Source of the DNA: a virus | Virus record (IMG/VR): IMGVR_UViG_3300046515_000156 | Span: 1-27,278 of that record | Strand: one strand, 5' to 3' | DNA: 27,278 bases | In this document: positions 5,702-27,093 of the stretch, piece after piece | Layout of the letters: each line of letters starts with the position of its first letter | Numbering within the stretch: the first letter of the stretch is position 1 | Program-made: the position numbers and the translations under genes | The notes under the pieces: generated by a model | Told to the model about the DNA's origin: nothing | Seen by the model: only the letters and a program-made list of their open reading frames with translations | Database searches by the model: none

Positions 5702-5723
5702 ATTTCAGGAAGGTTTAAGGTTT
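5702..5723 (-). promoter_or_regulatory. Candidate late promoter/activator site upstream of gene I (PI-like)
   Basis: The minus strand reads AAACCTTAAACC then TTCCTGAAAT. The same 22 bp with two changes recurs at 15146-15167, upstream of the lysis operon. Mu has C-activated late promoters at precisely these two places (PI and Plys), and this prophage encodes a Mor/C-type activator. The site lies 35 nt upstream of the gene I ATG and directly after the accessory HEPN gene. Its promoter role is inferred from the repeat and its position. Confidence 0.6.
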
Positions 5724-5745
5724 TTGCATTGATAGGGGGGGCTGT

Positions 5746-7480: not shown

Positions 7481-7490
7481 GTGATGCTCC

Positions 7491-8753: not shown

Positions 8754-8755
8754 GG

Positions 8756-12374: not shown

Positions 12375-12378
12375 GGCG

Positions 12379-12998: not shown

Positions 12999-13216
12999 TA
13001 GTGCTTGCTCCTTTCGCGACGGGTTTGGCACTGCGCGCAACGCTGCACACCGGGGATGGCTTGGCGCCGTTCTTCGGGTATCGGCATGTCGCAATCAGCC
13101 ACCTGGCAGAACTCGGCCGAGGGGCCGATCAAAATTTCTTGCTGTGCCAAATGAGTCGCTAAAGCGCTTTCGTTGTGCAGGGCTTCCAGGACGCTGGCGT
13201 AGTCACTTGCTTTCAT
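12998..13216 (-). CDS. TraR/DksA-type zinc-finger protein
   Basis: A 72-residue protein with a C-terminal TraR/DksA-type finger: Cys37, Cys42, Cys60, Cys63, with the family signature IPEERRQAIPGVQRCAQCQ (46-64). TraR-like proteins bind the RNA polymerase secondary channel and mimic DksA plus ppGpp, and many phages carry one. The first Cys pair here is spaced C-x4-C instead of the canonical C-x2-C. The gene overlaps the end of Rz by 14 bp and shares a base with the gp25 start. Confidence 0.85.
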   Translation of the reverse strand: MKASDYASVLEALHNESALATHLAQQEILIGPSAEFCQVADCDMPIPEERRQAIPGVQRCAQCQTRRERSKH

Positions 13217-14458: not shown

Positions 14459-14459
14459 G

Positions 14460-14753
14460 TCAGAGCCCCAACGTCAGGCCGAGAACGCAGCCCAGCACGA
14501 CCAGGGCGCGACGAATGCCCGCCAGGGAGCGGTCGCAGGCTGGAACCGCGTCTGGCCGTGCATAGGGAAACAGTGCCCGGTCGAGCCAGTAGCCCAACAC
14601 GCAGCCGAGTGTGACCAGGCCGCACTTGTAGAGGACAACAGGCAATTTGGTTGGGGCGACAATTGCCAGACAGAACAGCAAGGCGATGGTGATCAACGCC
14701 CAGAAGGTCATGCGAGGCGTGCGGGGTTGCCGCTTCGGTGTGGTGGTTGTCAT
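14460..14753 (-). CDS. Putative holin
   Basis: A 97-residue membrane protein starting MTTTTPKRQPRTPR, with about three hydrophobic stretches: 16-33 (FWALITIALLFCLAIVA), 37-53 (around VVLYKCGLVTLGCVLGY) and 82-97 (around ALVVLGCVLGLTLGL). The basic N-terminus, small size and position directly before the lysin fit the putative 2/3-transmembrane holin family. The ATG at 14753 overlaps the stop of the preceding gene (ATGA), so it is probably translated by coupling, as its own ribosome site is weak. Confidence 0.8.
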   Translation of the reverse strand: MTTTTPKRQPRTPRMTFWALITIALLFCLAIVAPTKLPVVLYKCGLVTLGCVLGYWLDRALFPYARPDAVPACDRSLAGIRRALVVLGCVLGLTLGL

Positions 14754-15085
14754 TGGGATACTCGCGGTGAGTTCATGGTGGCGCGCAGTGCGGCCAGTTG
14801 TTGAGCGGCCACAGAGGCATTGCCGCGCACGTAGGTAGGGGCTTGGTATTCGGCGAAGGTTGGCGTGATGGTTCTTACAGGGGGGCGTAACTTTTCCTGT
14901 TCGCGGACGTATTGCTCGGTGCGGGCTTCGGCTTGTGAGATATGCGATTGCACCAACTCCCGCCAGTCGGCCGGAACCTTGGCCCATAGCACCGCACGCG
15001 CTGCATCATCACCTGCGGCTTGAATAAGCTGGGCGAACTGGCGCGGCCGTTGGGGCCGGGAGACTTTGGGGGGAGCGGAATGCAT
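14750..15085 (-). CDS. Hypothetical protein, first gene of the lysis operon
   Basis: A 111-residue soluble protein, basic at the N-terminus (KVSRPQRPRQFAQLIQ). A middle segment reads AKVPADWRELVQSHISQAEART, and the C-terminus is Ala/Gln-rich (ASVAAQQLAALRATM). No membrane segment or signal peptide is visible. I do not recognise the family. It is the first gene after the candidate late promoter at 15146-15167 and overlaps the holin start by 4 bp. The start codon sits 3 nt after a strong leader hairpin, and its Shine-Dalgarno is poor. Confidence 0.75.
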   Translation of the reverse strand: MHSAPPKVSRPQRPRQFAQLIQAAGDDAARAVLWAKVPADWRELVQSHISQAEARTEQYVREQEKLRPPVRTITPTFAEYQAPTYVRGNASVAAQQLAALRATMNSPRVSQ

Positions 15086-15088
15086 AGC

Positions 15089-15125
15089 GCGAACCTGCCG
15101 TTTGAATGAACGGATGTAGGTTCGC
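15089..15125 (-). promoter_or_regulatory. Leader hairpin abutting the first lysis-operon start codon
   Basis: A nested inverted repeat: GCGAACCT pairs with AGGTTCGC (8 bp), and inside it CCGTT pairs with AACGG (5 bp) around a TGAATG/CATTCA loop. It lies between the candidate late promoter and the ATG at 15085, ending 3 nt before that codon. There is no T-tract. The parallel with the hairpin at the gene I start suggests a common role in late mRNA leaders. Confidence 0.6.
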
Positions 15126-15145
15126 GCACGGGGGGAGAAGTTGTA

Positions 15146-15167
15146 ATTTCAGGGGGGTTTAAGGTTT
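15146..15167 (-). promoter_or_regulatory. Candidate late promoter/activator site upstream of the lysis operon (Plys-like)
   Basis: The minus strand reads AAACCTTAAACC then CCCCTGAAAT, matching 20 of 22 bases of the element upstream of gene I (5702-5723). It lies in the only sizeable gap between the early/middle genes and the lysis cassette, 61 nt upstream of the first lysis-operon ATG, directly against a GC-rich hairpin. Position and repetition suggest the Mor/C-dependent late promoter. Confidence 0.6.
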
Positions 15168-15189
15168 AGCCCCGCTCGGTGGCGGGGCT
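15168..15189 (-). terminator. GC-rich hairpin after the secreted accessory gene
   Basis: AGCCCCGC pairs perfectly with GCGGGGCT (8 bp, 6-nt loop), starting 7 nt after the stop of the secreted-protein gene. On the minus strand it is followed by AAACC, not a T-run, so intrinsic termination would be weak. It directly abuts the candidate late promoter and may separate middle from late transcription. Confidence 0.45.
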
Positions 15190-15195
15190 TGGGCT

Positions 15196-15738
15196 TTACA
15201 GTAACTTCATTGAGTAAATTGCCATCATGCCCTTGGGCGTGCTCACAAGTTCAAGGCTAACTTGCGATGTACCCTTGCCAATTTTCTTAGTACCGGCTTT
15301 AGGCTTGCCGCCAGCTCTGATAATTGGCTGCTGACGATCTAGCTCCTGTACAAAAAAATCATTCACCAGGTCGAAAGCAGCGCCCCTACCAACAAGACCC
15401 TGGAAGAGTACGTCTCTGAGTGCTTCTGCATTTCGATAGTCACTCACAGAGGTTGAATCATTTGAAAGAAGCATCACTGTTAGCCCAGTAATAGCGTCTT
15501 TCGCTTTGCCACTTATTTGCACAATTGATGCGGCGCTACCTACGGGAACTGTTCCTCCCCAGCGCTTCAGTCCGTCTGCGTCAGTTTCAGTCAGTTGACT
15601 GCGGACATTTGGAAGCTCTTCCAGCATCTCGTCATATGATTTTTTGAAGGCGTGTTTGGGGCTGTCGATGGCTGCGTGGGCAGATAAAGAAACAGCCAAG
15701 CAGAGAAACAAACTGATTAAACCATTCGCTAATTTCAT
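15196..15738 (-). CDS. Secreted/periplasmic accessory protein of unknown function
   Basis: A 180-residue protein with a clear Sec signal peptide: MKLANG start, hydrophobic core LISLFLCLAVSL (about residues 7-18), and cleavage after SAHA (about 19-22). The mature part is charged, mixed helical and ends in a beta-rich segment (SQVSLELVSTPKGMMAIYSMKLL). The ATG at 15738 has AGGAGAG about 7 nt upstream; the open frame extends further but overlaps the Mor gene. No family recognised. It is AT-richer than the flanking phage genes and is placed between Mor and the lysis promoter, where Mu has no such gene. It is therefore a probable lysogenic-conversion gene ('moron'), possibly acting in the envelope, for example in exclusion. 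Confidence 0.7.
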   Translation of the reverse strand: MKLANGLISLFLCLAVSLSAHAAIDSPKHAFKKSYDEMLEELPNVRSQLTETDADGLKRWGGTVPVGSAASIVQISGKAKDAITGLTVMLLSNDSTSVSDYRNAEALRDVLFQGLVGRGAAFDLVNDFFVQELDRQQPIIRAGGKPKAGTKKIGKGTSQVSLELVSTPKGMMAIYSMKLL

Positions 15739-15760
15739 ACCCACTCTCCTTTGAGCAACT

Positions 15761-16198
15761 CTAATGAACTGTCCCGTCATCAAAGCCGAATAAGTCGGGC
15801 TCGCTCTTACGGTGGAGCGCCCGTTGACGGGCAATGATGTCATAAATCGTTTGGCTCGACAGGTCGTACTTGCTGACCATATCGGCGGGTTTGACCCCAC
15901 GGTCTCGCCAATCCTGATAGATCGCCGCGTCGCGCATGGCTCGCTTTAGGATTGTGCCCCGTGGCAGATACATCACTGTACCGCCCTGGTGTTCACAGAT
16001 CGAATAGACCACACGGCGGGCCAATTCAGGGGCACCGTCTGGGTTATTAAGCGCCTTACGCAGCTCGACTTCTGCGACCCTGACCATCTCGCCCAGGGTG
16101 CCCTCCCAGCGTGCAAGGACGGTGGGTGACTCCATGTGAGCTAGAACCTTATCAGGGTCGAGTTTATCGCTGTCGTCCGGGAATAGTTCTTCGTTCAT
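15761..16198 (-). CDS. mor: Mor/C-family transcription activator
   Basis: A 145-residue protein of the Mu Mor/C family, which activates middle or late phage promoters by binding dyad sites as a dimer. Recognisable parts are the dimerisation region (about 55-100, with ELARRVVYSICEHQGGTVMYLPRG, whose 'GG..vYiP.g' is the family signature) and the C-terminal helix-turn-helix (about 110-135, VSKYDLSSQTIYDII). Only one Mor/C homologue is present in the window, so it may do the work of both Mor and C. It overlaps the gemA stop by 4 bp and is the last gene of the early operon before the secreted protein. Confidence 0.93.
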   Translation of the reverse strand: MNEELFPDDSDKLDPDKVLAHMESPTVLARWEGTLGEMVRVAEVELRKALNNPDGAPELARRVVYSICEHQGGTVMYLPRGTILKRAMRDAAIYQDWRDRGVKPADMVSKYDLSSQTIYDIIARQRALHRKSEPDLFGFDDGTVH

Positions 16199-16611
16199 CG
16201 TTCAGGCCTCCCATGTCGGCGGGCATCGTAGGTCAATGCCGCAACCAATTTTTGCAGTTGCCCAGGGTCGAGCCATTCCACGCGCTCGACCTTGAACATG
16301 CGCAAGGCCATACCATCAGCATACGCCCAGGAGCGTTTCGCTTCGGCGAGAAAGGCCTCAATCTTACCCACCAGTTTCTCCCGGTCTGGCGCAGGTGTCG
16401 GCGCTTTGCGGCCATGCTTTTTAGCCGGTGCCGACGCCCAGCCCAATCGGGCGAACTCGGCCAATACTGCGCCGGTCTGGCGGGGGGTCAGGTCTTTGGC
16501 CGAACGCACACCGGCCACACGGACCAGTAAGGCGCGGTAGGTATCGTCATCCAGTCCCAGCTCCTTCTTGGCGATATGGATTTTGCTCAGTTGCAAGTTT
16601 CGCGTGCTCAT
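16195..16611 (-). CDS. gemA: GemA-like regulatory protein (Mu gp16, DUF1018)
   Basis: A 138-residue protein. The N-terminal LSKIHIAKKELGLDDDTYRALL (about 8-29) and the VRSAKDLTPRQTGAVLAEFARLGW segment are diagnostic of the GemA/DUF1018 family. In Mu, GemA modulates host gene expression and DNA topology late in early transcription, and gemA directly precedes mor, as here (4-bp overlap). The C-terminal half (AFLAEAKRSWAYADGMALRMF, VEWLDPGQLQKLVAAL) is also typical. Confidence 0.92.
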   Translation of the reverse strand: MSTRNLQLSKIHIAKKELGLDDDTYRALLVRVAGVRSAKDLTPRQTGAVLAEFARLGWASAPAKKHGRKAPTPAPDREKLVGKIEAFLAEAKRSWAYADGMALRMFKVERVEWLDPGQLQKLVAALTYDARRHGRPER

Positions 16612-16886
16612 TGTCTTCCTCCTTTGATAAGGGCCTGGAACGCGGCTGGGTCGTTTCGGGACAGTGCGGCGACACCATGAATAGTCATGGTGAGCGCGTG
16701 TTCTGTTTCATCGAACGCCCCGGCGCTGCGGATCTGTTCCACTTCGCTCCTGGTGCCGCTATAGATTTCCATCTTGAGTTTGCTAGCGCCCATAGCCAGG
16801 CGCTTGTCCTTGTCGCGCTTGCGCTGGGCGCGTTTACGCTCGCGAGCCAGGCGGGTTTTGCGCTGTGTGGGTGATTCGTCTGTCAT
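16608..16886 (-). CDS. Hypothetical basic protein of the early operon
   Basis: A 92-residue protein from the ATG at 16886, or 101 residues if a TTG at 16913 is used. The TTG lies inside the loop of a structured repeat, so the ATG is preferred, although its ribosome site is weak. Residues about 8-35 are extremely basic (RKTRLARERKRAQRKRDKDK), suggesting nucleic-acid binding or a charged coil. The remainder (EVEQIRSAGAFDETEHALTM) is helical. Family not recognised. The stop overlaps gemA by 4 bp. Confidence 0.7.
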   Translation of the reverse strand: MTDESPTQRKTRLARERKRAQRKRDKDKRLAMGASKLKMEIYSGTRSEVEQIRSAGAFDETEHALTMTIHGVAALSRNDPAAFQALIKGGRQ

Positions 16887-16890
16887 GGGT

Positions 16891-16958
16891 GGCTGCTCAT
16901 CAGTACCGGACAACCACGTCCGGCAGACCGCCCCAGCAAGCCGGGACGGTTTCGCTTA
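16891..16958 (-). ncRNA. Two-hairpin structured RNA element, copy A
   Basis: A 68-bp element, 57/68 identical to copy B at 17637-17704 with no gaps. On the minus strand it begins with the TAA of the DUF2786 gene (TAAGCGAAACCG). Hairpin 1 is CCGTCCCGG/CTGGGGCGG with loop CTTG. After a 4-nt spacer, hairpin 2 is CCGGAC, loop GTGGTT, GTCCGG (16906-16923). The element ends in the constant GTACTGATGAGCAGCC just before the next gene. Compared with copy B, hairpin 2 has two compensatory pair swaps and an unchanged loop, so the structure appears to be conserved. Function unknown. Confidence 0.7.
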
Positions 16959-17627
16959 GTGCAGGGCAAGCTGTTCCTGACCGTTAACCCCATGGTTTAA
17001 GCGCACATCGCCCGCCGCAAGAATGCCGTGCAGGGCGTCAGTCATGGCACGCACACCATTTCCCTGGTTGGCGTTACGGTCGCGGCAGGCGAGCTTTTCC
17101 GTCTCTGTGTGGTGCTTGAGCATGTACGCCGAAGTCGCCGGGGATGGTTCATCATTGCCAGCAAAGGCCATGACCTGCTTTCGCACGGCCGATACCCAGG
17201 CCGCACAGAACACGTCGGCGCGTTTGGTCTTGGTCGCTGTCTTGCAACGCTTCAACTGAGTGTTGATAAAGTCGCGTCGAGACTGCCGAACCTGGCGCAG
17301 CAATAGGGTCATGGTGTAGCTGGCCAACTCCGCTAGTTCACCGATAAAGCGCCATTCGCCGATACCGGCCATGAACAGGACTTTGCAGGCATAGGCTTGA
17401 GTAACGGCTCCAACCAGGTTGGCTTCCCATTGCGGCGGGGTCATTTTTGAACCACTACGGGCGGCACATTCGTACACTTCGGATAGCTGGATATCCGATT
17501 CTTCTAAACGATACTTTTCCATCAAGGCACGGGCCTGGCGCATTGCAGCGGCGGCTTCGTGCGGGTTGTCGCTTGCTGCCAGGCGCAACAGTTTTTTGAT
17601 CTTTTCTAAGGCTTTGCTGTGATCCAT
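16956..17627 (-). CDS. DUF2786 domain protein
   Basis: A 223-residue protein. Residues 1-40 (ALEKIKKLLRLAASDNPHEAAAAMRQARALMEKYRL) match the DUF2786 domain closely. The rest, with a FIGELAELASYTMTLLLRQVRQ helix, the DVFCAAWVSAVRKQV segment (about 140-155) and a C-terminal stretch of unknown fold, resembles the region that usually accompanies DUF2786 in phage proteins. The biochemical role is unknown; the family is frequent in Mu-like early regions. The ATG has a GAGGAAG ribosome site located immediately after structured RNA copy B, and the stop is the first triplet of copy A. Confidence 0.85.
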   Translation of the reverse strand: MDHSKALEKIKKLLRLAASDNPHEAAAAMRQARALMEKYRLEESDIQLSEVYECAARSGSKMTPPQWEANLVGAVTQAYACKVLFMAGIGEWRFIGELAELASYTMTLLLRQVRQSRRDFINTQLKRCKTATKTKRADVFCAAWVSAVRKQVMAFAGNDEPSPATSAYMLKHHTETEKLACRDRNANQGNGVRAMTDALHGILAAGDVRLNHGVNGQEQLALH

Positions 17628-17636
17628 ATCTTCCTC

Positions 17637-17704
17637 GGCTGCTCATCAGTACCAGGCAACCACGCCTGACAGACCGTCCCGGATGGCCGGGGCGGTTTCG
17701 CTTA
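17637..17704 (-). ncRNA. Two-hairpin structured RNA element, copy B
   Basis: Second copy of the 68-bp element. It again starts at a stop codon (TAA of the 73-residue protein gene) and ends in the constant tail before the next ribosome-binding site. Hairpin 1 is CCGCCCCGG/CCGGGACGG with loop CCAT and one C-A mismatch. Hairpin 2 is TCAGGC, loop GTGGTT, GCCTGG (17652-17669). Relative to copy A, a G-C pair has become A-U, an A-U pair has become G-C, and the outer C-G has become U-G. The U-G is a pair only on the minus (transcribed) strand. Confidence 0.7.
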
Positions 17705-17923
17705 TTGAAGGGTCATGGTGGTGGGTTGCCAGCGGCAGGCAGGAATGGCACCCAACATCTTTTCGCTGGCGACCAGGTCGAATACCTTGTTGGAAAGTCG
17801 CACAGCTTCCGTCTGCCGGGGTGTTCCCAGGGAGCTGGTCGGTACGCCTGTCATATCAACGGTGACGGAGGGCTTGCCGTTGCCTTCGGCGCGGTCCTCC
17901 AGGGTGATTGTGATCTTTGCCAT
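17702..17923 (-). CDS. Hypothetical 73-residue protein of the early operon
   Basis: A small protein beginning MAKITITLEDRAEGNGKPSV, with a beta-prone start and a later helical segment (TEAVRLSNKVFDLVASEKML). The ATG at 17923 has AGGAAG 6 nt upstream, a good site. No family recognised. Its stop codon begins structured RNA copy B, so translation ends exactly where the RNA fold starts. Confidence 0.72.
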   Translation of the reverse strand: MAKITITLEDRAEGNGKPSVTVDMTGVPTSSLGTPRQTEAVRLSNKVFDLVASEKMLGAIPACRWQPTTMTLQ

Positions 17924-17931
17924 GGGGCTTC

Positions 17932-18339
17932 CTATCGTTGAGTGTGGAAAGTAATGCGGTAATCGCGGGCAACCTGGCGCACGTACTTTTCGGTCATGTG
18001 GTGCTTACGTGCGACCCACCTAGGGGAGTTGCCCAAGGCTGCATCTGCCATGATCAACGTGGCGTGCTTGCGGGTGTCCGGTGCGACTTCCTCAAGCTCG
18101 GCAGATACCGAGGGCGGATCAGCGGCCACAGAGACAAACAAGTGGGCATAGACTGGCGACCGTTCCGGGTTAATCGTGAAGGTCGCTGGTGCGCTGCTCA
18201 TCTGGTGGCCGACCTTCTGGATTTGTCCGCCACGATCCAAGAACTGCTCAGTCAGGCGGTCTAGGTTGGCGCGTTCAACGTCGTGTTGCGGCGAGTGGAT
18301 GGGCAACGGATCGCTGCGGGTGTCGTGATAACGCTGCAT
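17932..18339 (-). CDS. Hypothetical protein with a possible C-terminal helix-turn-helix
   Basis: A 135-residue protein. The C-terminal third (about 95-135, MADAALGNSPRWVARKHHMTEKYVRQVARDYRI) has the pattern of a helix-turn-helix, with WVARKHHMTEKYVRQVA as the likely core. The N-terminal part is hydrophilic and contains a short MSSAPATFTINPERSPVYAHLFVSV segment. No family recognised. The start follows the DUF3164 stop by 2 bp, with GGGGGTC upstream. Confidence 0.7.
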   Translation of the reverse strand: MQRYHDTRSDPLPIHSPQHDVERANLDRLTEQFLDRGGQIQKVGHQMSSAPATFTINPERSPVYAHLFVSVAADPPSVSAELEEVAPDTRKHATLIMADAALGNSPRWVARKHHMTEKYVRQVARDYRITFHTQR

Positions 18340-18341
18340 GA

Positions 18342-18962
18342 TCAGACCCCCGCGATATCAAGGCTGATAGGTTCGTACTGCTCCGTATCACCTACACGCT
18401 GATACACACGGATGTAGGACTTTGAGCCAACCACCTGGCAGGCATCACCAATGGCCTGCATGGCGCGCTGCCAGCGCTCATCGGTAATTTCCATCCGGCG
18501 CAATGCCAAGACGCGGGCTGTGCGGATGTCGCCTTTCTGGTCAGTCCGAAAGGCGTCATTCACAAGCGTGACCACTTCGGGGCGTGCCCCGGTGGTCCAG
18601 TCGCGCAGGCATTCATCAATCAATGCCCGCGCTGCCTGGAGGCGTTCGTCGAAGGCGATGCTTTCCTGGACGGCGCGCATGATCTTGAAGCGCCCATCGA
18701 AGCTGATCAGGCTGACATTGCCTTTCTTGCCGCCGATCTGCGCGCCGTACTGCTCGGCGCTTAGTTCCACAAAGGCTTCGATATCACCGAATGCCGAGGC
18801 CTTGAACTTCGCCAGAACCTCGTTGGCAGCGCGGGCTTTTTCAACCAGGCCAAGCACCAGGGTGTCTCGCTCCAGGTCGATAGGTTTGATCATGCTTTCC
18901 GGGATCAGCCGCTTTTGAGCGTCGACGCGGTAGCCTTCGGGAATGGTTTGTTGTTGTGTCAT
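18342..18962 (-). CDS. DUF3164 family protein
   Basis: A 206-residue protein matching the DUF3164 family found in Mu-like early regions. Visible hallmarks are PEGYRVDAQKRLIPESMIKPIDLERDTLV at the N-terminus (about 9-37), GGKKGNVSLISFDGRFKIMRAVQE (about 77-100) and a C-terminal MQAIGDACQVVGSKSYIRVYQR. Function is not established. The ATG at 18962 has GAGGAAAC about 8 nt upstream. Confidence 0.88.
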   Translation of the reverse strand: MTQQQTIPEGYRVDAQKRLIPESMIKPIDLERDTLVLGLVEKARAANEVLAKFKASAFGDIEAFVELSAEQYGAQIGGKKGNVSLISFDGRFKIMRAVQESIAFDERLQAARALIDECLRDWTTGARPEVVTLVNDAFRTDQKGDIRTARVLALRRMEITDERWQRAMQAIGDACQVVGSKSYIRVYQRVGDTEQYEPISLDIAGV

Positions 18963-18973
18963 TGCAAGTTTCC

Positions 18974-19297
18974 TCAGTGGAGAGTCAGTCGCGACCAGTC
19001 AGCAGGACGGGAAGCGCTAATGGGCTCGCGCCATTCCAGGGTCACGCCCTGGAACTGCACGTTGAAACGGGTGCTACCGGCCGTGGGGTAGCGCTTGTAG
19101 CCCTCGGTGTGGCCGAGGTTGAGCAGGCGCTGACCAGACTCGGGAGTGATCACCAGGAGATTGTTTGTAGGGTGAAAGGCCTGCACGCGGATGCCATGGG
19201 CCTGCAAGTTGCGGGCAGCGGCGTTAAACACCCGCAGACGGTCTGCCAGGGTCGGGGTCAGGATTTTCAATGACGTGCGGTTAGTGGAGGCGAGCAT
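18974..19297 (-). CDS. Hypothetical early protein
   Basis: A 107-residue protein from the ATG at 19297 (AGGAG 9 nt upstream); longer in-frame starts run back into the preceding gene and are unlikely. The sequence MLASTNRTSLKILTPTLADRL is followed by FNAAARNLQAHGIRVQAFHPTNN and a basic C-terminus. No family recognised. It overlaps the 3' end of the HTH/Cys protein gene by 17 bp and precedes DUF3164. Confidence 0.72.
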   Translation of the reverse strand: MLASTNRTSLKILTPTLADRLRVFNAAARNLQAHGIRVQAFHPTNNLLVITPESGQRLLNLGHTEGYKRYPTAGSTRFNVQFQGVTLEWREPISASRPADWSRLTLH

Positions 19298-19661
19298 GGG
19301 CGTTCTCCTGGTTGCAGCAGTCGGGGTTAATTGGGCAGTGTTGGCAGGCGCGCCAGTGCTGCATCGCCTGGGGGTTGTGAGTCGGTGCCGGTTTTTCGCG
19401 GTAGCTTTGGCACTGGTCAGAGGTGACAGTCTCGTCCAGGGCGACACATTCAATGCGGCCCAGGGTTTCCATCACGCGCCGCTCCACGCCCGCCGTGCTG
19501 GGGGATGCGTAGCGGTTGGATAGAATCAGGCTGACGGCCGTGCGGCTCATGCCAATGCGCTGGCTGGCCTTGGTTTTGTTGCTGGCGGCTACCTCAGCGG
19601 CAAGCAAGCGCACGAACAACGGCACTTCGTTGCCCCAGGCGGACAGGTTTACCTGGTTCAT
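19281..19661 (-). CDS. HTH protein with C-terminal cysteine cluster
   Basis: A 126-residue protein. Residues about 28-52 (NKTKASQRIGMSRTAVSLILSNRY) form a LacI/Cro-like helix-turn-helix. The remainder carries six cysteines (72, 84, 106, 109, 115, 116), the last four in RACQHCPINPDCC, suggesting a bound metal or Fe-S cluster. A similar layout, an HTH followed by a CP-like spaced-Cys region, occurs in small phage regulators. The ATG at 19661 has a strong AGGAGG site and overlaps the upstream gene stop. A redox- or metal-responsive regulator is possible but unproven. Confidence 0.75.
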   Translation of the reverse strand: MNQVNLSAWGNEVPLFVRLLAAEVAASNKTKASQRIGMSRTAVSLILSNRYASPSTAGVERRVMETLGRIECVALDETVTSDQCQSYREKPAPTHNPQAMQHWRACQHCPINPDCCNQENAHARLH

Positions 19662-20266
19662 TCGGCCACCTCCTGGTCAGCTTTGCGCCACACGACCTGA
19701 TCTAGGTTCGGGTCATAGACCTGGTGAAAGTCGCGCTGATAGATCGGATGTTTGGGGCCGGTGTAGCGGGACGGAACCAGGCTGAAACGGGTTTTAACAC
19801 CAGGCGTTCCGCCTCGACGTGTCACATAGCCAGCCTTTGCCAGGCCTGACAAATACACATGAGCGCCAAATTCACTAATGGACACGCCGTTGACGCTGGC
19901 GGCGACGGCGGCCTCGGCGGCGCTAAACTCGCCCAGGATGCGCAATGCCCGCCAGACGTTCTCGGCACCGGCTGCATACTTGGAAACTTTGCCGCTACGG
20001 GTAATGCGCGGGGCTTCAACGCCTTCGTCTTTAAGGAGTTCCCACTCGGCATCGAAGCGCCCGACGTTGCGAACTTTGCTGACAATGCCGGCCTTTTCCA
20101 TGTCTCGAAAATAGCCACGTACGGTTTGGTCGTCCTGGTTCGACTTTCGAGCAACAGCGTAAGTCGTCAGCTCTTTAGGGCTGGCGTTGATGGCACGAAT
20201 GGCTTCCCAAATATGTTGGCGTGGGGGCTTTCCTCCCACCATCACCAGATCGGCTCTGATTCCCAT
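19658..20266 (-). CDS. Hypothetical protein with winged-helix-like segments
   Basis: A 202-residue protein that appears to contain two similar helical modules. The first (about 15-70) includes KELTTYAVARKSNQDDQTVRGYFRDMEKAGIVSKV, a likely winged helix. The second (about 98-160) includes FSAAEAAVAASVNGVSISEFGAHVYLSGLAKAGYVTR, which follows the same helix-helix-wing pattern. DNA binding is therefore plausible. It lies directly after ATPase B (3-bp gap, GGAGGG site), where Mu-like phages of Pseudomonas carry unnamed early genes. Confidence 0.75.
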   Translation of the reverse strand: MGIRADLVMVGGKPPRQHIWEAIRAINASPKELTTYAVARKSNQDDQTVRGYFRDMEKAGIVSKVRNVGRFDAEWELLKDEGVEAPRITRSGKVSKYAAGAENVWRALRILGEFSAAEAAVAASVNGVSISEFGAHVYLSGLAKAGYVTRRGGTPGVKTRFSLVPSRYTGPKHPIYQRDFHQVYDPNLDQVVWRKADQEVAE

Positions 20267-20269
20267 GGC

Positions 20270-20989
20270 TCAAGCCCTCCGCGACGGCGCTTCGCCGGTA
20301 AACCAACCGCGTGAGCCCCAACCGGCGAGGTCGATGCTGTCGATGGCCAGGGCTTGGGTTTCGCTGTAGACCCGATATAGGTTGACGGCGATACGGCGAA
20401 GGCACCCACCGACCTTGGTCCGCAGATCCTCCAACAGGTCATCGGCAAAGCGCAGTGATGGATAACTGGCCTTACTCAAGGCGCGCAGATCATCGAGGGT
20501 GGCGCGTTGTGCAGGCACCCACTCCAGCACACGGTTATGCAGGCGCTCCAACTTAGCCAAACTACCGGGCACACGCTCTTCGCCGATCAGGACGATAGTT
20601 CCCTGGCTGGCGTTGTAGATGTCGGTCAGGACGTTGGCGACGGCCTTTTCCAGCAGGTACTGCACGTCGTCAATTAGCAGTGGGCGACCACTGCGGGATA
20701 GCTGCTCGGCGATCTGGTCAACCATCTGTGACAAGGTGCGCTCTGGCTGGATGCTCATTTCGCGCAGGATGGCGAGCAGGAAAGCTTTCTTGCTCCAGGT
20801 ATCGCGACACTCCACGTAGTAGGCGCGATGTTGGTTGGCGGCGAAGGCAGCGCCCACGCTTTTACCCAGCCCGCTTGCGCCGTACATCACCACCAAACCA
20901 GGCAGGCCGGCTGGGCGGGCATGGGCTCGGGCGATGGCGGCTGACAAGAGGCCGACATTGGTCAGGGGAACGATCTTGGTAACACTCAT
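20270..20989 (-). CDS. B: Transposition ATPase, target-DNA activator (MuB-like)
   Basis: A 239-residue AAA+ ATPase. Walker A is GASGLGKS (37-44) and Walker B is PLLIDDVQ (103-110); an arginine-rich region follows in the last third. MuB-type proteins form filaments on target DNA, give target immunity and stimulate the transposase. At 239 residues it is shorter than MuB (about 312), lacking most of the N-terminal DNA-binding extension, as in related Pseudomonas transposable phages. It starts 24 bp after the transposase stop with AGGAG upstream. Confidence 0.93.
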   Translation of the reverse strand: MSVTKIVPLTNVGLLSAAIARAHARPAGLPGLVVMYGASGLGKSVGAAFAANQHRAYYVECRDTWSKKAFLLAILREMSIQPERTLSQMVDQIAEQLSRSGRPLLIDDVQYLLEKAVANVLTDIYNASQGTIVLIGEERVPGSLAKLERLHNRVLEWVPAQRATLDDLRALSKASYPSLRFADDLLEDLRTKVGGCLRRIAVNLYRVYSETQALAIDSIDLAGWGSRGWFTGEAPSRRA

Positions 20990-21013
20990 AATGCGACTCC
21001 TAAAGGTCTTGGG

Positions 21014-23065
21014 TTAAGCGCGGGCCTTGTCGGCGAACGCGAACATTTGCTGAATAGATTTGAAGTCCGGGTGTTGCGGGTAGCGGGCATGCCATTGCGT
21101 TTCCTCGGCCGTCAGCGACTCGCCGCTGGTGATGCGGCCGTCGATCTGGAGCCAGAGGCGGTATCGGGCGGTTGGGTCGGTGGGCAATTCGAAGGCCGAG
21201 GCCTGCGGTGCAGCCAGTTGGGCGAAGCGCTGGGCCTCGGCAAGTTGTTCAGGCGACAGGTCGTACTGGCTCGACTGCGAAGCAATGACGCGCATTTCCA
21301 CGTCTTGCCCGGTAATGGTTTTGGCTTTTTTGACCAGGCGGGACAGCTGGCCGCGTTCGCGTTTCTCGCTGGCTTTTTCCAGCATGGTTTTCGGCATGGC
21401 TGGACTGGCGTTCCCGTCGAGCAGCGCCTCGCCGATCAGATCGCCCTCTAGGGAGTGGACCCAAACACGGCTAGCGTCGCGGAAGTCATAGGCCACGCGG
21501 ACCTGTTCCCCGTGGAAGCCGTCCAGGTCTTTAAGGAAGTAGGTGCCGCTGTTCCATTGCACCTGGCAACGGTGGACGGTGCGCTCGACCTGTGGCCGGG
21601 TCAGGCTCTCGACGATGTTGCTGTCAGCCAGCAATGGTTCCCAGCCCTCGGCCTCTGCCGACTTCCAAGACTCCATTGGGCTTTGGTGGCGCTTGCGCAT
21701 GGTCGCAAGGTCGCGGAACTTCGGCAGGCCACGATGTGGGCGACGGTTGTAGTCATCGAGTGCTTCTTGCAGGGCCGCGAAGAACACCGAAAATTCAGGT
21801 ACGACTGTCGGCGCGATGCCCAGGGCAAGCTGTTTACGGGACAGTTTGTGGGTCTTGGTAGCGGCCTCTTTATCCATATCGGCGCCGATATAACTGTCGA
21901 ACGTCTTGGCGAGCCGAACCAGGATGGTTTTATGGGGGCGCTCAATTACGCCGCGAGCCTGAGAGTTGTAGGGCAATGAGTGCGTGATAGTGCCGCCCAG
22001 GCGGTCGTTGACCTCGTAAACAACGGAGTTGTCAAAACCGCTGCCGTTGTCGACGTAAAACACCTTGTACATGCCGCAACGACTTACGCCGTCACGTAAG
22101 GTGTCCAGTGTGGCTAGGGTTGACTCCGCCAGGTTGACGGAGAAACCGACGATACGGCGGGTGCCCCAATCAATGACCATGGTGATTTCTGGGCGGAAAA
22201 TCTGCCCCGTCAATGGATTGATCACTTCGGCGTCAAAGGTGTGGCCGTCGGCCACCCACACGTCATTCGGCCAGAGCATGTCGGCCTGACGGCGGTTATA
22301 GGCTTTTAAGGCGTTCAGTTCGTGCGGACCCATGCGCCCTTGCTCACGTACCGACGGGCTGAGTTTTTTCAGCCAACGGCGCACCGCATGAATGCTCGGG
22401 CAAACACTGGAATTGATGTCCTGGTGCAATTGCTTGAACTGCTCATACGCAGCTTCAACACTCGGTTTCTGCGGTCGCTGGTAGTGCTTGAGGAATGCTT
22501 GCGCCCAGGTCGGGACGCTCATATCTTTTTGACGACGGGCCGGAGCTAGGCCTATTTCGCCGTGGGCGCGGTAGTCCGCCAGCCAACGCTTGAGGGTGCG
22601 CTCAGACAGGGTGCGGTCTTCGGTCTTGCGGTCGTTGGCGCGGATTACTCGCTCATTCAGATACGGACTGAGGTCGCCGGTTTTAGCCAACCCAACCAGA
22701 GTAAGGATGGCGCGGTTTTGGCTGACTACCTTGCTCATGCGTTCGATTTCACGCACGAACGCAAGGCGCGCAGTCATTACAGAAGACTGTGCATCGTTCA
22801 AGCGTGACGCTTTTTCTGAGTCACGCCCGGCTGTTACTACGTGTTTTTCAGCGACTGGTTCAACGGCGTTTTCTACGAGCGTTGCTGTCAAAAGCGCTGC
22901 CTGGGTTTCCTTTGGCAGGACCGAAAGGGTGTACTCAATGGCCTTACTGCCAAGACGCTGCTGGCCTTCCCAACGCTCACGCTTGGCGCGTATTTGAATG
23001 GCGCGCTCTGTTCCTGGCATTCCAGGCAAGCCAGCCAGCTCGCCGGCTGAATACCAATTACGCAT
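21014..23065 (-). CDS. A: DDE transposase (MuA-like)
   Basis: A 683-residue protein, close to MuA (663). The N-terminal WYSAGELAGLPGMPGTERAIQIRAKRE (about 4-30) is the Mu-type DNA-binding domain. Further DNA-binding helices occupy about 90-245. The catalytic core has Asp273 (VADGHTF), Asp339 (FYVDNGSG) and Glu375 (RGVIERPH), the DDE triad; these compare with 269, 336 and 392 in MuA. A basic C-terminal region follows. The start is the ATG at 23065, overlapping the preceding gene by 8 bp with GGGTGA upstream; the open frame extends 108 bp further but lacks family sequence. It catalyses integration and replicative transposition. Confidence 0.97.
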   Translation of the reverse strand: MRNWYSAGELAGLPGMPGTERAIQIRAKRERWEGQQRLGSKAIEYTLSVLPKETQAALLTATLVENAVEPVAEKHVVTAGRDSEKASRLNDAQSSVMTARLAFVREIERMSKVVSQNRAILTLVGLAKTGDLSPYLNERVIRANDRKTEDRTLSERTLKRWLADYRAHGEIGLAPARRQKDMSVPTWAQAFLKHYQRPQKPSVEAAYEQFKQLHQDINSSVCPSIHAVRRWLKKLSPSVREQGRMGPHELNALKAYNRRQADMLWPNDVWVADGHTFDAEVINPLTGQIFRPEITMVIDWGTRRIVGFSVNLAESTLATLDTLRDGVSRCGMYKVFYVDNGSGFDNSVVYEVNDRLGGTITHSLPYNSQARGVIERPHKTILVRLAKTFDSYIGADMDKEAATKTHKLSRKQLALGIAPTVVPEFSVFFAALQEALDDYNRRPHRGLPKFRDLATMRKRHQSPMESWKSAEAEGWEPLLADSNIVESLTRPQVERTVHRCQVQWNSGTYFLKDLDGFHGEQVRVAYDFRDASRVWVHSLEGDLIGEALLDGNASPAMPKTMLEKASEKRERGQLSRLVKKAKTITGQDVEMRVIASQSSQYDLSPEQLAEAQRFAQLAAPQASAFELPTDPTARYRLWLQIDGRITSGESLTAEETQWHARYPQHPDFKSIQQMFAFADKARA

Positions 23066-23498
23066 GGCTGTCACCCAATGCACGCTTGAGTTCGCGTGCC
23101 TTACGTCCGGCATCATCGCGCAGGCGTTCCAGCCGCCCCAGTTCCGCATTGAGTGCGTCACGACCGTAAGCAATACGCCCGCCGCGCTGTTCGGCCAGCC
23201 AGTTGGTCAGTGCGTGGCAACTGCATACTTCTTCTAACAGGGGGGCTCTGTAGAACGGCAGGTTGTGATCTGTCCGGGCCGGACTCGACCATGCATCAAG
23301 CATGTGCTTGCTTACATCGTCACCCGAGAGTCGAGACATACGAGCTGCAATTTCATAGCGGTCTAGATCTGAACCTTTAAGGATCTCGCCGATCAGTTCA
23401 CTTACCTGGGCTGCATTGTTGCCGTTACCAGGTATAGCTAGAACCGGCTGTGGGACGGAGAAGATGTCTAACGTCCGGTCGTCTTTGACTTTGCGCAT
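23058..23498 (-). CDS. Hypothetical protein between Ner and transposase
   Basis: A 146-residue protein, hydrophilic and largely helical. The first half contains AAQVSELIGEILKGSDLDRYEIAARMSRLSG. The C-terminal 45 residues look like a coiled coil (AYGRDALNAELGRLERLRDDAGRKARELKRAL). I do not recognise the family. Transposable phages of Pseudomonas often have an unnamed gene at this spot between the Ner-type regulator and transposase A. The stop overlaps the transposase start by 8 bp, so the two are probably co-translated. Confidence 0.75.
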   Translation of the reverse strand: MRKVKDDRTLDIFSVPQPVLAIPGNGNNAAQVSELIGEILKGSDLDRYEIAARMSRLSGDDVSKHMLDAWSSPARTDHNLPFYRAPLLEEVCSCHALTNWLAEQRGGRIAYGRDALNAELGRLERLRDDAGRKARELKRALGDSHA

Positions 23499-23500
23499 GT

Positions 23501-23839
23501 TTATCCCTCCGTACCTGTTTTACGGTGCCGAAGGTCATAAGCTGGGTTATGCTCTTGGCTATAAGTTGCGTTCTTCTCGGCACGTTGTGACCTGATCCGA
23601 TATGGGGTGCCGTTGGCGTTCCAACGGTCCGGCCACAAGTCGATTGGCTGAAGGCCCAGAGCCTTGGCTATCGCTCGTTCCATACGCGGGTAAGCTGTGC
23701 GTTTAGCGTTTTTAACGGCAGTGTCAGAGACGTTGAGTTCACGCGCCAACATCGCCAGCGAAGTGCCTTTGGCACGTAGCTGGTACTTGATCCATTCCCA
23801 GCGTTGGGTCGGATTCAAAGGGATTTCGGTTTTGTTCAT
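23501..23839 (-). CDS. ner: Ner/Nlp-like early repressor
   Basis: A 112-residue protein of the Ner/Nlp family. The core (about 10-75) holds a helix-turn-helix, SLAMLARELNVSDTAVKNAKR, and the diagnostic AIAKALGLQPIDLWPDRWNANG. In Mu, Ner shuts down early and repressor transcription by binding between the two promoters; this gene has the same first-in-operon place. It carries about 35 extra hydrophilic residues after the Ner core. The ATG at 23839 follows a leader of roughly 60 nt from the proposed early promoter. The next gene begins 2 bp after its stop. Confidence 0.92.
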   Translation of the reverse strand: MNKTEIPLNPTQRWEWIKYQLRAKGTSLAMLARELNVSDTAVKNAKRTAYPRMERAIAKALGLQPIDLWPDRWNANGTPYRIRSQRAEKNATYSQEHNPAYDLRHRKTGTEG

Positions 23840-23856
23840 GCCATACGTCCAGTTTT

Positions 23857-23881
23857 AACCACCGGGAAGGGTGGTTTTTTT
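23857..23881 (+). terminator. Rho-independent terminator facing the repressor gene
   Basis: AACCACC, loop GGGAAG, GGTGGTT, followed directly by a T-run on the plus strand. This is a textbook intrinsic terminator in the plus direction. No plus-strand gene precedes it, so it would stop antisense transcripts from entering the control region. In the minus (early) transcript the same hairpin lies in the Ner leader. Confidence 0.75.
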
Positions 23882-23902
23882 GGGGTGTCTAACGTCACTT
23901 AC

Positions 23903-24081
23903 GGCATAAACATAGCCGCTTTGTTCTTGGCGGTAAAGCGAAAAGCGGCATTTCGCTTTGCCGGAACCGGCATTTTTATAAGCGGTGAAGCTATGCCATT
24001 GTTTTTAAAGGCTTTAATTGGAATGCGAAATTTCGTTTTCTTTTGCGGCAGGGTTTCGTTTTCTCCTTTGGAGAAAGCGAA
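23903..24081. promoter_or_regulatory. Divergent control region with operator-like repeats
   Basis: Between ner and the repressor. GGTAAAGCGAAA (23932-23943) and TTTCGCTTTGCC (23951-23962) form a near-perfect inverted repeat. GCGAAA-like units recur at 24024-24033 (GCGAAATTTCG), about 24053-24060 and 24074-24082, the last at the repressor start codon. A longer imperfect dyad pairs GGCATAAACATAGCCGCTT (23903-23921) with AAGCGGTGAAGCTATGCC (23980-23997). These are probable binding sites for the repressor and for Ner. Confidence 0.6.
23909..23937 (-). promoter_or_regulatory. Candidate early promoter (Pe) for ner and the transposase operon
   Basis: On the minus strand TTTACC (23937-23932) and TATGTT (23914-23909) are separated by 17 bp and match the sigma-70 boxes at 4/6 each. 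The −35 box overlaps the GCGAAA-containing palindrome, where a repressor could block it. This is the best pair in the region upstream of ner, but it is a sequence guess. Confidence 0.45.
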
Positions 24082-24738
24082 ATGAGTGAGGGGCTAGCGG
24101 CGCGCATCCGAGAATGCGCTGAGATAGCCGGAAGCGGCGACGAACTTTCGCGCCTAACGGCTATACCTCGACGAACTCTGGAGTACTACCTGACGGGACA
24201 TAGGGAACCAAAGGTTGCCCGTTGCGTTGATATTGCAAAGGCCGTAGGTGTGGATATTGGGTGGCTTGCGTCAGGAGAGGGGGATAGACAGAGGGGCATG
24301 GTTGCTGCGGCACCTGACGAGAGTGCGTATGTCTACGTGCCTCTGTACGACGCCTATTGCAGCGGTGGGCATGGATCGTGGAACGATGGGGCGAAGGTAC
24401 TGACTATGCTCGCTTTTACGGCCTACTCGCTTCGTAAGAAGGGCTTGGAGCCATCCAGGCTTTCTGCTATCCGAGTAGACGGCGACTCGATGCTCGGGCT
24501 TTTGAACGACGGCGATACGGTTGTCATTGACCACGGCCGCAACACCCTTGAGGGTGAGGCTGTCTACGTCATCCAGTTGGATGACCATCTCTACGCCAAG
24601 AGGCTTCAACGCCAGTTCGACGGCTCGATCCACATCATCAGCGAGAACAAGGCCTACAGAGATATGATCGTGCCCAAGGAAAAGCTGAATGATCTGCGGA
24701 TCATTGGCCGCGTTGTATGGGCTGGTGGCTGGATCTAG
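24082..24738 (+). CDS. c: Prophage repressor with LexA/S24 peptidase domain
   Basis: A 218-residue protein. Residues about 5-62 form an N-terminal helix-turn-helix (DELSRLTAIPRRTLEYYLTGH, 20-40). The C-terminal half is an S24 peptidase domain with Ser136 (VDGDSM) and Lys173 (YAKRLQR) as the likely catalytic pair, so RecA-stimulated self-cleavage and SOS induction are expected. Self-cleavage would fall near residues 89-98 (YDAYCSGGHG). The ATG at 24082 is preceded by GGAGAAAG; 13 upstream in-frame codons are probably untranslated. It is the only plus-strand prophage gene and points toward the prophage end, as Mu c does. Confidence 0.93.
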   Translation: MSEGLAARIRECAEIAGSGDELSRLTAIPRRTLEYYLTGHREPKVARCVDIAKAVGVDIGWLASGEGDRQRGMVAAAPDESAYVYVPLYDAYCSGGHGSWNDGAKVLTMLAFTAYSLRKKGLEPSRLSAIRVDGDSMLGLLNDGDTVVIDHGRNTLEGEAVYVIQLDDHLYAKRLQRQFDGSIHIISENKAYRDMIVPKEKLNDLRIIGRVVWAGGWI

Positions 24739-24957
24739 TCACACCGCTATCGGTGCCAAAGAGCCTGTTAAATTGGGGCGCACTGCTCAAGACTGATTGA
24801 TTTTGGTCTTGCAGCTCTTTGGCATCGTTCTTGAGCCGCCCCGTAGTGGATGCTCCCCGCAACGCCCCGTCTTGTCGGGCTCATCACGAATTGTCCTGCT
24901 TAATCCAGCTTCTTCCCACCAGATCCTCCCCAGTGCCAAAGCTGCCACTAACCCACA
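24739..24957. repeat. Prophage genetic left end with three transposase-binding-like repeats
   Basis: A 219-bp non-coding end. A GTGCCAAAGAGC-type unit occurs at 24753-24764 (plus), 24814-24825 (inverted, ATGCCAAAGAGC) and 24933-24943 (plus, GTGCCAAAGCT), the last 14 bp from the inferred terminus. Mu-type ends carry three transposase sites, so these are likely L3, L2 and L1 analogues. The terminus is set at 24957, reading TGTGGGTTAG inward. The 5-bp target duplication, if present, would be GATCA (24958-24962); the opposite end is not in the window to confirm it. Confidence 0.7.
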
Positions 24958-25491
24958 GATCAGACGCTGGTCGTCGAGGCGCTGGCGTGTCATCACGGTG
25001 AGCGATTGCGGGGTTTCCCGTGGGGTCAGGTTCAGGCGCGTCGAGCTGCTGGACGATTGCGTGGTGTAGGAACCGGTGCCCTCGGTGGTCGAACCCGGCG
25101 CCTTGCCGGAGATGGACACGGTGCTCAGTTGCAAGGCGCCGCCCGCCGGGCGTGGTTCCAGCGAATAGTTATTGCCGCTGCCACGCACGGCTTGCAGGTC
25201 GCTGCTGCTGAGCAGGATTGCCAGGCCGCTGTCCAGGTCATGGCGCCCATGCAGGCCGGGGCTGGTCTTGCCGTCGGTGAGCGCCGCCGGGTAGGACAGC
25301 AGGATCTGGCTGGCCTGGCCGAACCGGTTGAGTGCGCCGGCCAGCGAACCAGCCGGGATGTCGAAGTCGATCTGCGGCGCGGCCTGCACCCAGGCCGACG
25401 CCAGCAGCAACGGCGTGGCGAGCGTGAGCGTGGCGATGCCTTGCATGACCGCAAGGGCCAGTGATGTTTTCAACGTTGTGCGTGGCTGCAT
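24787..25491 (-). pseudogene. TonB-dependent siderophore receptor (FecA/FpvA-like), disrupted by the prophage
   Basis: Codons 1-178 (25491-24958) encode the start of a transducer-type receptor. They comprise a signal peptide (about 1-38, cleaved after VQAA), an N-terminal signalling (STN) domain (about 40-115, FDIPAGSLAGALNRFGQASQ), a TonB-box-like segment near 122-128, and the first plug residues ending MTRQRLDDQRL. At TGT (24957) the frame enters prophage DNA exactly on a codon boundary and continues 56 codons to a stop at 24787. The beta-barrel is lost; the remaining receptor sequence should lie beyond the other prophage end. The truncated product could be exported but cannot transport. 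The ATG at 25491 follows GGGGAAACAGGC. Confidence 0.9.
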
Positions 25492-25573
25492 GCCTGTTTC
25501 CCCAGTGAAGGTAGTGTCTGGGAATACAAGTCTCGTGAGATCGGCAAACGGCTCACTTTGCCGCAAAATAAAT

Positions 25574-26524
25574 TCACACGAGGTGCTGGCGCGGCTTGAG
25601 GGTGACCCAGAACCGCGTGAAATGCTGCACATCCAATTGCAGGGTCTGCGCCAGGGCGGCGAGGATGCGGTCGGTGTCGGCCAGCGGGTAGGTGCCCGAC
25701 ACCCGCAGGCCGCGCACCGCCGGATCACAGGCCAGGCGCCCGCGCCGATAGCGGCTCAATTCTTCAAGGAAGTCCTCCAGGCGCATGCCCTGGGCGACGA
25801 TCATGCCGCCGCGCCAGGCCAGCTCGCCGTCCCGTTGTGGGCGACGGGCGAGCACGGTGTGGGCATCGAAGCTGATCAGTTCGCTGGGCTGCAACACCAG
25901 GCTGCGCGACGGGATCTGCACCGACAATGCGCCCTGGTCTGCGCCCAGCTGGGTGAAGCCGTCACGCTGACGCACGCTGAAACGTCCGCTGACCGCGCGG
26001 GTCAGGCCTTCGGCGGTCTGCACCCACAGCGGGCGGCTGTCGGCGGGGTTGGGGTCCACGAGGATTTCGCCGCGCAACAGGTGGATCTGGCGCCGCTCGT
26101 GGGTGTATTGCACGTCGATGGCGCTGTCGGTGTTCAGTTGCACCTGGGTGTTGTCCGCCAGATCGATGCGCCAGCGCTCGCCGACGGTGGTGCTGTAGTC
26201 GCTGGTCCAGTGTTGCAGCAGTTCGCTGTCTTTGGCGCTCCACGCCGTGGCGCCCGCCACCATCAGCACGGCGAGGTGCTTGACCACCTGGCGACGAGAC
26301 AAGGCCGGCCGCAATGCAGCGCTGACCAGGGCCTGATGCGCCGGCGCGCGCACGTCTTGCATGCGCTGGAAAAAGCGTTGGGAATGCTGCCAGGCCAGTT
26401 CGTGGGCCGGGTCTTGTTCGCGCCAGCGCTGGCATTGCGCACGGGTTTGCTCACTGACGTCGGGCGCCTGCAATTCCAGTTGCCAATGCATCGCCTGCTC
26501 GGCGGCTTCCAGGGACAGCGTCAT
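25574..26524 (-). CDS. FecR-like anti-sigma/sigma regulator
   Basis: A 316-residue inner-membrane regulator, the usual length. The N-terminal cytoplasmic part (about 1-75) has the FecR anti-sigma pattern (QAMHWQLELQAPDVS, CQRWREQDPAHELAW). A membrane segment lies about 82-97 (VVKHLAVLMVAGATAW). The periplasmic FecR domain (about 110-215) contains GERWRIDLADNTQVQLNTDSA and IHLLRGEILVD; the C-terminal STN-like part (about 235-316) would contact the receptor's signalling domain. It overlaps the sigma gene by 4 bp (ATGA) and its partner receptor directly downstream is broken, so it has probably lost its signal input. Confidence 0.93.
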   Translation of the reverse strand: MTLSLEAAEQAMHWQLELQAPDVSEQTRAQCQRWREQDPAHELAWQHSQRFFQRMQDVRAPAHQALVSAALRPALSRRQVVKHLAVLMVAGATAWSAKDSELLQHWTSDYSTTVGERWRIDLADNTQVQLNTDSAIDVQYTHERRQIHLLRGEILVDPNPADSRPLWVQTAEGLTRAVSGRFSVRQRDGFTQLGADQGALSVQIPSRSLVLQPSELISFDAHTVLARRPQRDGELAWRGGMIVAQGMRLEDFLEELSRYRRGRLACDPAVRGLRVSGTYPLADTDRILAALAQTLQLDVQHFTRFWVTLKPRQHLV

Positions 26525-27036
26525 GGTTGCTGGCTGTCCAGCAGGATGCATTGCGCGCCGGCCTTGATGATGTAGCGCTTGACCGTGGCGATGCTGGCGC
26601 CGAGGCGCTCGGCAATCTCGCCATGGCTGAGGCCATCGAGCTGCGACCACAGGAACGCCTGACGCACCGGCAAGGCCAGGCGGCTGAGCACTTCGTCGAG
26701 GGCGGTGAGGGTTTCCAGCAGGATCCATTGGGTTTCGGCGCTGGGGGCGGATTCTTCCGGCAACAGGGCCAGGGCCTGCAAGTAGGCGCGCTCCAGCTTT
26801 TGCCGACGGAAGTGGTTGGACAGCACGCTCTGCGCCACCTTCGCCAGAAAACTGCGCGGCGCCTGCACCTCGATCGCCTGATTCTTCGCCAGCAGCCGCA
26901 GGAAGGTGTCCTGGGCCAGGTCCGCGGCACTCTGCGAGCAATTCAGGCGACGCCACAGCCACTGCTGCAACCAACGGTGTTGCTGCTGGTACAGGGTGGC
27001 CAGGTCAGTAGGGCTTACCGCAGGAGTCGAAGACAT
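26521..27036 (-). CDS. FecI-like ECF sigma factor
   Basis: A 171-residue sigma factor from the ATG at 27036 (or 176 residues from a TTG at 27051; neither has a clear ribosome site). Region 2 covers about 15-80 (DLATLYQQQHRWLQQWLWRRL, DLAQDTFLRLLAKN, PRSFLAKVAQSVLSNHFRR). Region 4 covers about 110-165 (LDEVLSRLALPVRQAFLWSQLDGLSHGEIAERLG), with the helix-turn-helix HGEIAERLGASIATVKRYI. It would direct RNA polymerase to the siderophore receptor gene when FecR signals. A Fur box over its promoter implies iron repression. Confidence 0.94.
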   Translation of the reverse strand: MSSTPAVSPTDLATLYQQQHRWLQQWLWRRLNCSQSAADLAQDTFLRLLAKNQAIEVQAPRSFLAKVAQSVLSNHFRRQKLERAYLQALALLPEESAPSAETQWILLETLTALDEVLSRLALPVRQAFLWSQLDGLSHGEIAERLGASIATVKRYIIKAGAQCILLDSQQP

Positions 27037-27065
27037 GGGAGGCGCGCACAAAGAATGATGCGCAA

Positions 27066-27093
27066 ATGATAACGGTTATCATATGTTTCGCAA
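27066..27093 (-). promoter_or_regulatory. Fur box overlapping the sigma-gene promoter
   Basis: ATGATAACGGTTATCAT (27066-27082) is a perfect 17-bp palindrome of Fur-box type (GATAAT-like half sites). On the minus strand a −35-like TTGCGA (27093-27088) and −10-like TATCAT (27071-27066) are 16 bp apart, so the palindrome covers the −10 box. It lies 30 bp upstream of the sigma-factor ATG. Confidence 0.85.

Follow-up and report, generated by a model that had tools for sequence, protein, structure and literature searches.

A Mu-like prophage within a TonB-dependent receptor gene of Pseudomonas and the recurrent insertion sites of its phage group

The stretch of DNA that we analyzed (hereafter, the window) is the 27,278-nucleotide viral record IMGVR_UViG_3300046515_000156, which consists of a Mu-like prophage followed by host Pseudomonas DNA (positions 24958-27278) with the genes of a fecI-fecR-receptor operon (Table 1). 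The record starts inside the tail genes of the prophage, so that the right part of the phage lies off the window. Portal and terminase genes were also recognized in the prophage. The host side aligns with Pseudomonas sp. KBW05 (L002) at 99.57% identity over 2321 bp, and the alignment ends exactly at 24958. The insertion point follows codon 178 of an FpvA/FecA-type receptor gene: read on the minus strand, the receptor sequence ...CGT CTG ATC passes directly into the phage terminus. Translation confirmed that the receptor frame enters phage DNA at TGT (24957) and stays open, as the preliminary description of this DNA had stated, yielding a product of 234 amino acids that comprises 178 receptor codons and 56 phage codons. 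The product retains the STN signaling domain (PF07660, E 1.6e-08) and stops 56 codons past the junction; the plug and barrel are absent from it.

Table 1. Features of the prophage, its left junction and the adjoining host operon (window coordinates).
Feature	Position	Strand	Evidence or remarks
Mu-like prophage, left (repressor) end at 24957	1..24957	-	phage genes, phage-host junction
Tail sheath	465..1565		profile match
Small protein directly behind B	19658..20266	-	weak matches, winged-helix DNA-binding families
B-type ATPase (DNA transposition protein)	20270..20989	-	phrog_296, AAA_22, TniB
Transposase A	21014..23173	-	Mu-transpos_C 6.1e-15, HTH_Tnp_Mu_1 6.3e-14, phrog_310 1.6e-174
Repressor (HTH + Peptidase_S24), pointing to the left end	24043..24738	+
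Left-end region, repressor stop to terminus	24739..24957		end motif GTGCCAA at 24753 and 24933
Left terminal sequence TGTGGGTTAGTGGCAGC	24941..24957	-	motif TTTGGCAC next, same register as at the right end
Receptor fragment joined in frame to 56 codons of the phage end	24787..25491	-	signal sequence, STN, TonB-box region, plug start
Target duplication TGATC, 5 bp	24958..24962	-	also at the far phage end in L020
fecR-receptor intergenic region	25492..25573	-	conserved in 14 relatives; presumed sigma-dependent receptor promoter site
FecR anti-sigma/pro-sigma regulator, intact, open	25574..26524	-	profile matches
FecI-type ECF sigma factor, intact, open	26521..27051	-	profile matches
Fur-box-like 19-mer upstream of fecI	27062..27080	+	14/19; 0/2000 shuffles reach the score

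The far end of the prophage was found in a second viral contig (L020, IMGVR_UViG_3300046515_000102), the sole locus returned when the viral contigs were searched with the receptor remainder of KBW05. In this contig, ...GCGCGCTTACA is followed directly by TGATCAACCTC and then by the rest of the receptor to the contig end; the match covers 243 residues, begins at residue 1 of the query and is 100% identical to KBW05. The sequence TGATC adjoins both phage ends, indicating that a 5-bp target was duplicated in the manner of Mu transposition. Although they are two separate records, the window and L020 very likely share one origin, given the identical insertion point. A related contig (MT835710) spans both, which gives an estimated distance of about 82 bp between their first bases and a computed prophage length of about 34.7 kb. 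That the window and the far end are separate contigs would also suit an assembly chimera with no real insertion behind it, yet this explanation is hardly credible, because both junctions carry the phage termini of the relatives together with the matching 5-bp duplication and because the same structure recurs in related prophages (12 of the 20 tried). Thus, the earlier proposal of a siderophore receptor truncated by a prophage, with signal peptide, STN domain and TonB-box region kept and the barrel lost, was borne out by the STN profile match, both junctions, the duplication and the receptor remainder at the other prophage end. In L020, the open frame of the remainder has a start codon in the phage end or at its border; because the remainder lacks a signal sequence, it is not expected to arrive at the outer membrane. 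At the right junction (L020 9662-9690), the phage ends in an A that, followed by the TG of the duplication, creates an ATG in the reading frame of the receptor remainder; a GTG start lies just upstream of this ATG.

We compared the locus with its uninterrupted counterparts in related Pseudomonas genomes. The receptor was unbroken, without internal stops, in 13/13 genomes searched (72-99% identity) and is complete in KBW05; a second complete copy at the locus was not found in any of the relatives examined. In the intact gene of the relatives, the STN domain stands N-terminal to the plug and barrel, and the gene lies beside the sigma and anti-sigma genes. This particular FecR was found at 15 loci among the genome contigs. 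By sequence, the intact receptor is nearest to FpvA (5odw, E 7.7e-168) and its signaling domain to that of PupB (6ovk, E 2.4e-21), and it scored below every cut-off listed among the NCBIfam equivalogs. The FecR and FecI genes had been described as intact and Fur-controlled, and both are indeed open and complete. Fur control is predicted from the Fur-box-like site before fecI, the only match of at least 14/19 in the window, which has a counterpart of 14-15/19 in 14/14 relatives examined. The ten differences from KBW05 over the 2321 bp (nine silent, one amino-acid change) are all in fecI and fecR, and the receptor part shows 0 nucleotide differences in 534 host bp and 178 identical residues in the alignment. 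Such an undecayed receptor fragment would fit a recent insertion and, equally, a kept function. The 13 related genomes carry 2-16 receptors each (E 1e-60 or better), so that the receptor lost in the lysogen is one of several. The expected loss of an iron-uptake route is seen at the level of the gene, which is cut, and the loss of uptake itself would follow from it.

The 56-codon extension of the receptor frame could be traced to the phage. The left terminus is the same in four other loci (L017, L018, L019 and L034) and differs by one base in another (L033), and the right end of the phage is TGTAAGCGCGCGCCGGATTTGGCACC. Both termini are of the TGT/ACA type (TGTGGG... on the left, TGTAAG... on the right) and are accompanied by TTTGGCAC in one register. 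Read inward from the left end, this frame likewise runs for 56 codons without a stop in L017, L018, L033 and L035, and elsewhere it extends for 50 (L039), 28 (L036), 18 (L019 and L034) or 20 codons (phages DMS3 and MP38). The two other frames at the end of the window's phage are closed by stops, one after 2 codons and the other after 23. The 56 open codons are thus a fixed property of the phage end, and landing in that frame is a one-in-three accident. We rejected a designed in-frame fusion on these grounds, the frame being set by the phage end. An AlphaFold model of the fusion (alignment A1) had a mean pLDDT of 35. Two side observations concern related left ends. Around position 1527 of L039, such an end joins in frame, with 50 phage codons open, to a gene end that by eye resembles a RelE/ParE-type toxin, and a human faecal contig (L017, positions 3917-4018) carries two left-type termini 60 bp apart, as if one phage had landed near another's end.

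The explanation that we favor, with a probability of roughly 0.87, is that a Mu-like phage transposed into a TonB-dependent receptor gene, with loss of the importer and ligand sensor and only a minor effect of the fusion. According to this model, a transposable phage of the Pseudomonas fluorescens group would have inserted after receptor codon 178, duplicating TGATC and parting the signal sequence, signaling domain and TonB box from the plug and barrel. The lysogen would lose the receptor both as an importer and as a sensor of its ligand. The short fusion may still be produced from the receptor's own promoter and exported and, if stable, would be expected to keep FecR in its protected, off state. 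This off effect should add little, because the sigma factor cannot be switched on without the receptor anyway, and the level of the fusion should be low, because its promoter would depend on the same sigma factor. Most likely, the main effect is that one siderophore receptor and its signal input are lost through a null mutation, an ordinary insertional inactivation. A search of the open-access literature yielded no description of a siderophore receptor interrupted by a Mu-like prophage.

The preliminary description had also suggested that the free STN fragment might bind FecR without ligand control. Binding is plausible, and published work points to repression as the likely direction. In one study, overproduction of a separate signaling domain prevented activation of each of four Pseudomonas systems (Fox, Fiu, Iut and Hxu) and blocked anti-sigma proteolysis in the two of them in which this was assayed (PMC11637429). 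Similarly, a review relates that surplus FecA signaling domain inhibits fec induction (PMC9249621). A gain of function, in which the free domain turns the sigma factor on without ligand, could draw on the intact STN and FecR and on the open fusion frame, but is very unlikely given the inhibition seen with free domains in those same systems (PMC11637429; PMC9249621). Repression by the free domain would itself be largely redundant, because the ligand-sensing receptor is also gone. The same redundancy weighs against the fragment being a selected dominant inhibitor that the phage makes to silence iron signaling. Free domains do inhibit in the published work cited above, and the fragment is identical to that of KBW05; however, the frame is one of three chance outcomes and relatives inserted elsewhere form no such fusion, which makes selection of this kind extremely unlikely.

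An iron-controlled phage program was also considered. The receptor, the fusion frame and the early phage genes are on one strand, and no terminator-like sites were identified in 24739-25491 by a scan that finds about as many sites as in shuffled sequence. Hence, transcription from the receptor promoter could cross the left end, run antisense to the repressor and enter the transposase operon, placing the early genes under iron control. We regard this as very doubtful, however, because the promoter should be off without the receptor. A promoter scan of the junction gave no useful signal, and no RNA families were detected around it. The simple inactivation of the receptor thus remains our preferred reading, and the locus is a cleanly mapped natural case of a prophage inactivating an iron-uptake route, in which the action of a free signaling domain could be studied in a natural lysogen.

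The site preference of the phage group is the part worth following, the broken receptor being ordinary. The usual description of transposable phages is one of nearly random insertion. We collected insertions by their right terminus, TGTRAGCGCGCGCCGGATTTGGCAC(CG), which was present in six viral contigs and, without mismatch, in 8/398 Pseudomonas genomes; allowing up to 3 mismatches, it was found at 25 places in 24/368 genomes, a set that overlaps the 398. For 12 of the 20 prophages tried, a matching left end was recovered together with a 5-bp duplication (left ends were not found for the other 8), indicating that the sampled insertions are transposition products. A search at E 1e-60 detected no transposase in 11/16 genomes, so some of the right ends are remnants or chance matches, which were kept in the counts. 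A second set was drawn from viral contigs with a more tolerant pattern: it returned 33 stretches, 27 of them new, and 24 remained once two duplicates and one previously encountered flank had been taken out. Right flanks were assigned to three classes: a tRNA gene 30-200 bp away with its 3' end towards the phage; a FecI-like frame within 400 bp that points away from the phage; or a repeat motif within 150 bp of the right end. The background was measured on 800,000 position-orientation pairs from 20 stretches of 20 kb in seven genomes.

Half of the right flanks in the first set (16/32) fell in a class (7 tRNA, 5 sigma, 4 repeat), as did 10/24 in the second (4 tRNA, 1 sigma, 5 repeat), while the same rules match 0.26% of the random pairs. 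The tRNA and sigma classes were first noticed on the first set, making the second the fairer test, and the repeat motif was written after the flanks of both sets had been viewed, which biases that class upward. With sites treated as independent, the chance of 10/24 is about 3e-20 with the upward-biased repeat class included, and that of the tRNA class alone (4/24) is about 1e-7. Orientation was fixed: with both strands scanned, the tRNA genes in the flanks had their 3' end towards the phage in 11/11 cases and the FecI-like frames pointed away from it in 5/5. The right ends at tRNA sites (L054, L055, L057, L070, L078, L084, L086, L116, L117, L128 and L130) lie 48-158 bp from the gene, and a tRNA-Pro(GGG) gene is the target in five different automatically called flanks (L054, L055, L078, L084 and L128). 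The right end is turned towards the gene at the FecI sites (L042, L043, L045, L056, L059, L073, L080 and L127; L042 and L043 assigned by eye). At the repeat sites (L041, L052, L053, L083, L108, L115, L122, L131 and L132), 63-136 bp separate the right end from a repeated intergenic element; the element has a core such as GGCCGAACGCAGG and, as scanned, was in one orientation throughout.

Several flanks were judged by eye, outside these counts. L042 and L043 lie upstream of one FecI-type gene that is followed by fecR in the intact genome L163, L109 and L118 resemble L056, and L075 (whose flank is the same as that of L126) abuts a tRNA-Pro fragment. The right flanks of L120, L123 and L124 share host sequence around TCTTTACTCTAAAA, apparently another recurrent site.

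The class of target is partly linked to the transposition module. When 20 transposases were placed in a tree, all six phages labeled as FecI-site fell within a single clade of seven members (SH-aLRT 100). The label requires 2 changes on this tree against a shuffled mean of 5.3, with 2/500 shuffles as low, and the tree of the B protein agrees on the clustering (1/500 shuffles); two of the labels (L042 and L043, in G406 and G407) were assigned by eye, and the presence of near-copies (G172 and G408) favors clustering. In the one exception within the clade (G052), neither the right flank nor the retrieved left region showed a FecI-like frame. In 12 genomes, between 3 and 52 FecI-like genes were counted per genome. 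The small winged-helix-like protein encoded behind B has a counterpart in a FecI-site phage and is a candidate for target choice. The window's phage belongs to another transposase clade, with mixed sites, and the right flank of its own insertion falls in none of the three classes. A bias of the phage towards receptor genes was rejected: in 31 flanks searched with the KBW05 receptor, no other receptor was recognized.

Taken together, we lean towards a model in which this group of Mu-like phages selects its targets in fixed orientation (upstream of FecI-type iron sigma genes in one transposase clade, 6/7; on the 3' side of tRNA genes; and at a single repeated element). The window's insertion would then be a relaxed or off-target product, and the transposition module a naturally occurring system for target-directed integration that does not belong to the Tn7 family. 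A possible alternative is that the pattern reflects survivorship or nearby REP elements. REP-like DNA was seen by eye in some flanks. As for survivorship in non-coding DNA, 10/24 would still have a probability of about 4e-11 were just 12% of the genome hittable, a round figure for its non-coding share. The recurrent sites in one orientation suggest target selection in Mu-like phages. In the P. aeruginosa phage Ab30, hotspots 55-61 bp from a REP-like motif take 5% of events and the rest are spread; these are REP/BIME hotspots, and the text examined names sigma genes 0 times (PMC5977238). The share at tRNA, FecI-type and repeat sites in the group studied here (16/32 and 10/24 prophages) contrasts with the 5% of events described for the REP/BIME hotspots of Ab30. 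For Leptospira prophages, integration has been called random (PMC8705779). No report of a tRNA or FecI-site preference of transposable phages was found in the open-access literature.

The operon in the window resembles the fec, fpv, pup and fox systems of cell-surface signaling in its FecI-type sigma factor, FecR, STN-bearing TonB-dependent receptor and Fur-box-like site, but its receptor is naturally cut by a prophage and lies below every listed NCBIfam equivalog cut-off. Like the free signaling-domain constructs (FoxA-SD and others), the fusion combines a signal sequence and signaling domain without the barrel; unlike them, it would be natural and single-copy, with the TonB-box region and a 56-residue phage tail predicted from the sequence. 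The phage shares with the D3112/DMS3-type transposable phages of Pseudomonas (Casadabanvirus; saltoviruses Ab30, 2P1 and HW12) the layout of repressor, left end, transposase and B and a Mu-type transposase, and the TGTGGG left terminus is common to it, DMS3 and MP38. However, DNA identity to this type is only about 68% even in the repressor region, and the window's phage has a contractile tail sheath. The sheath, combined with a repressor region related to the D3112 group, suggests a mosaic phage. Like the Tn7-like target-selecting transposons, the phage group recurs at defined features in one orientation. It differs from them in its variable spacing from the feature (about 24-320 bp by the site rules), and a scan of six early-region frames from one phage found no TniQ/TnsD.
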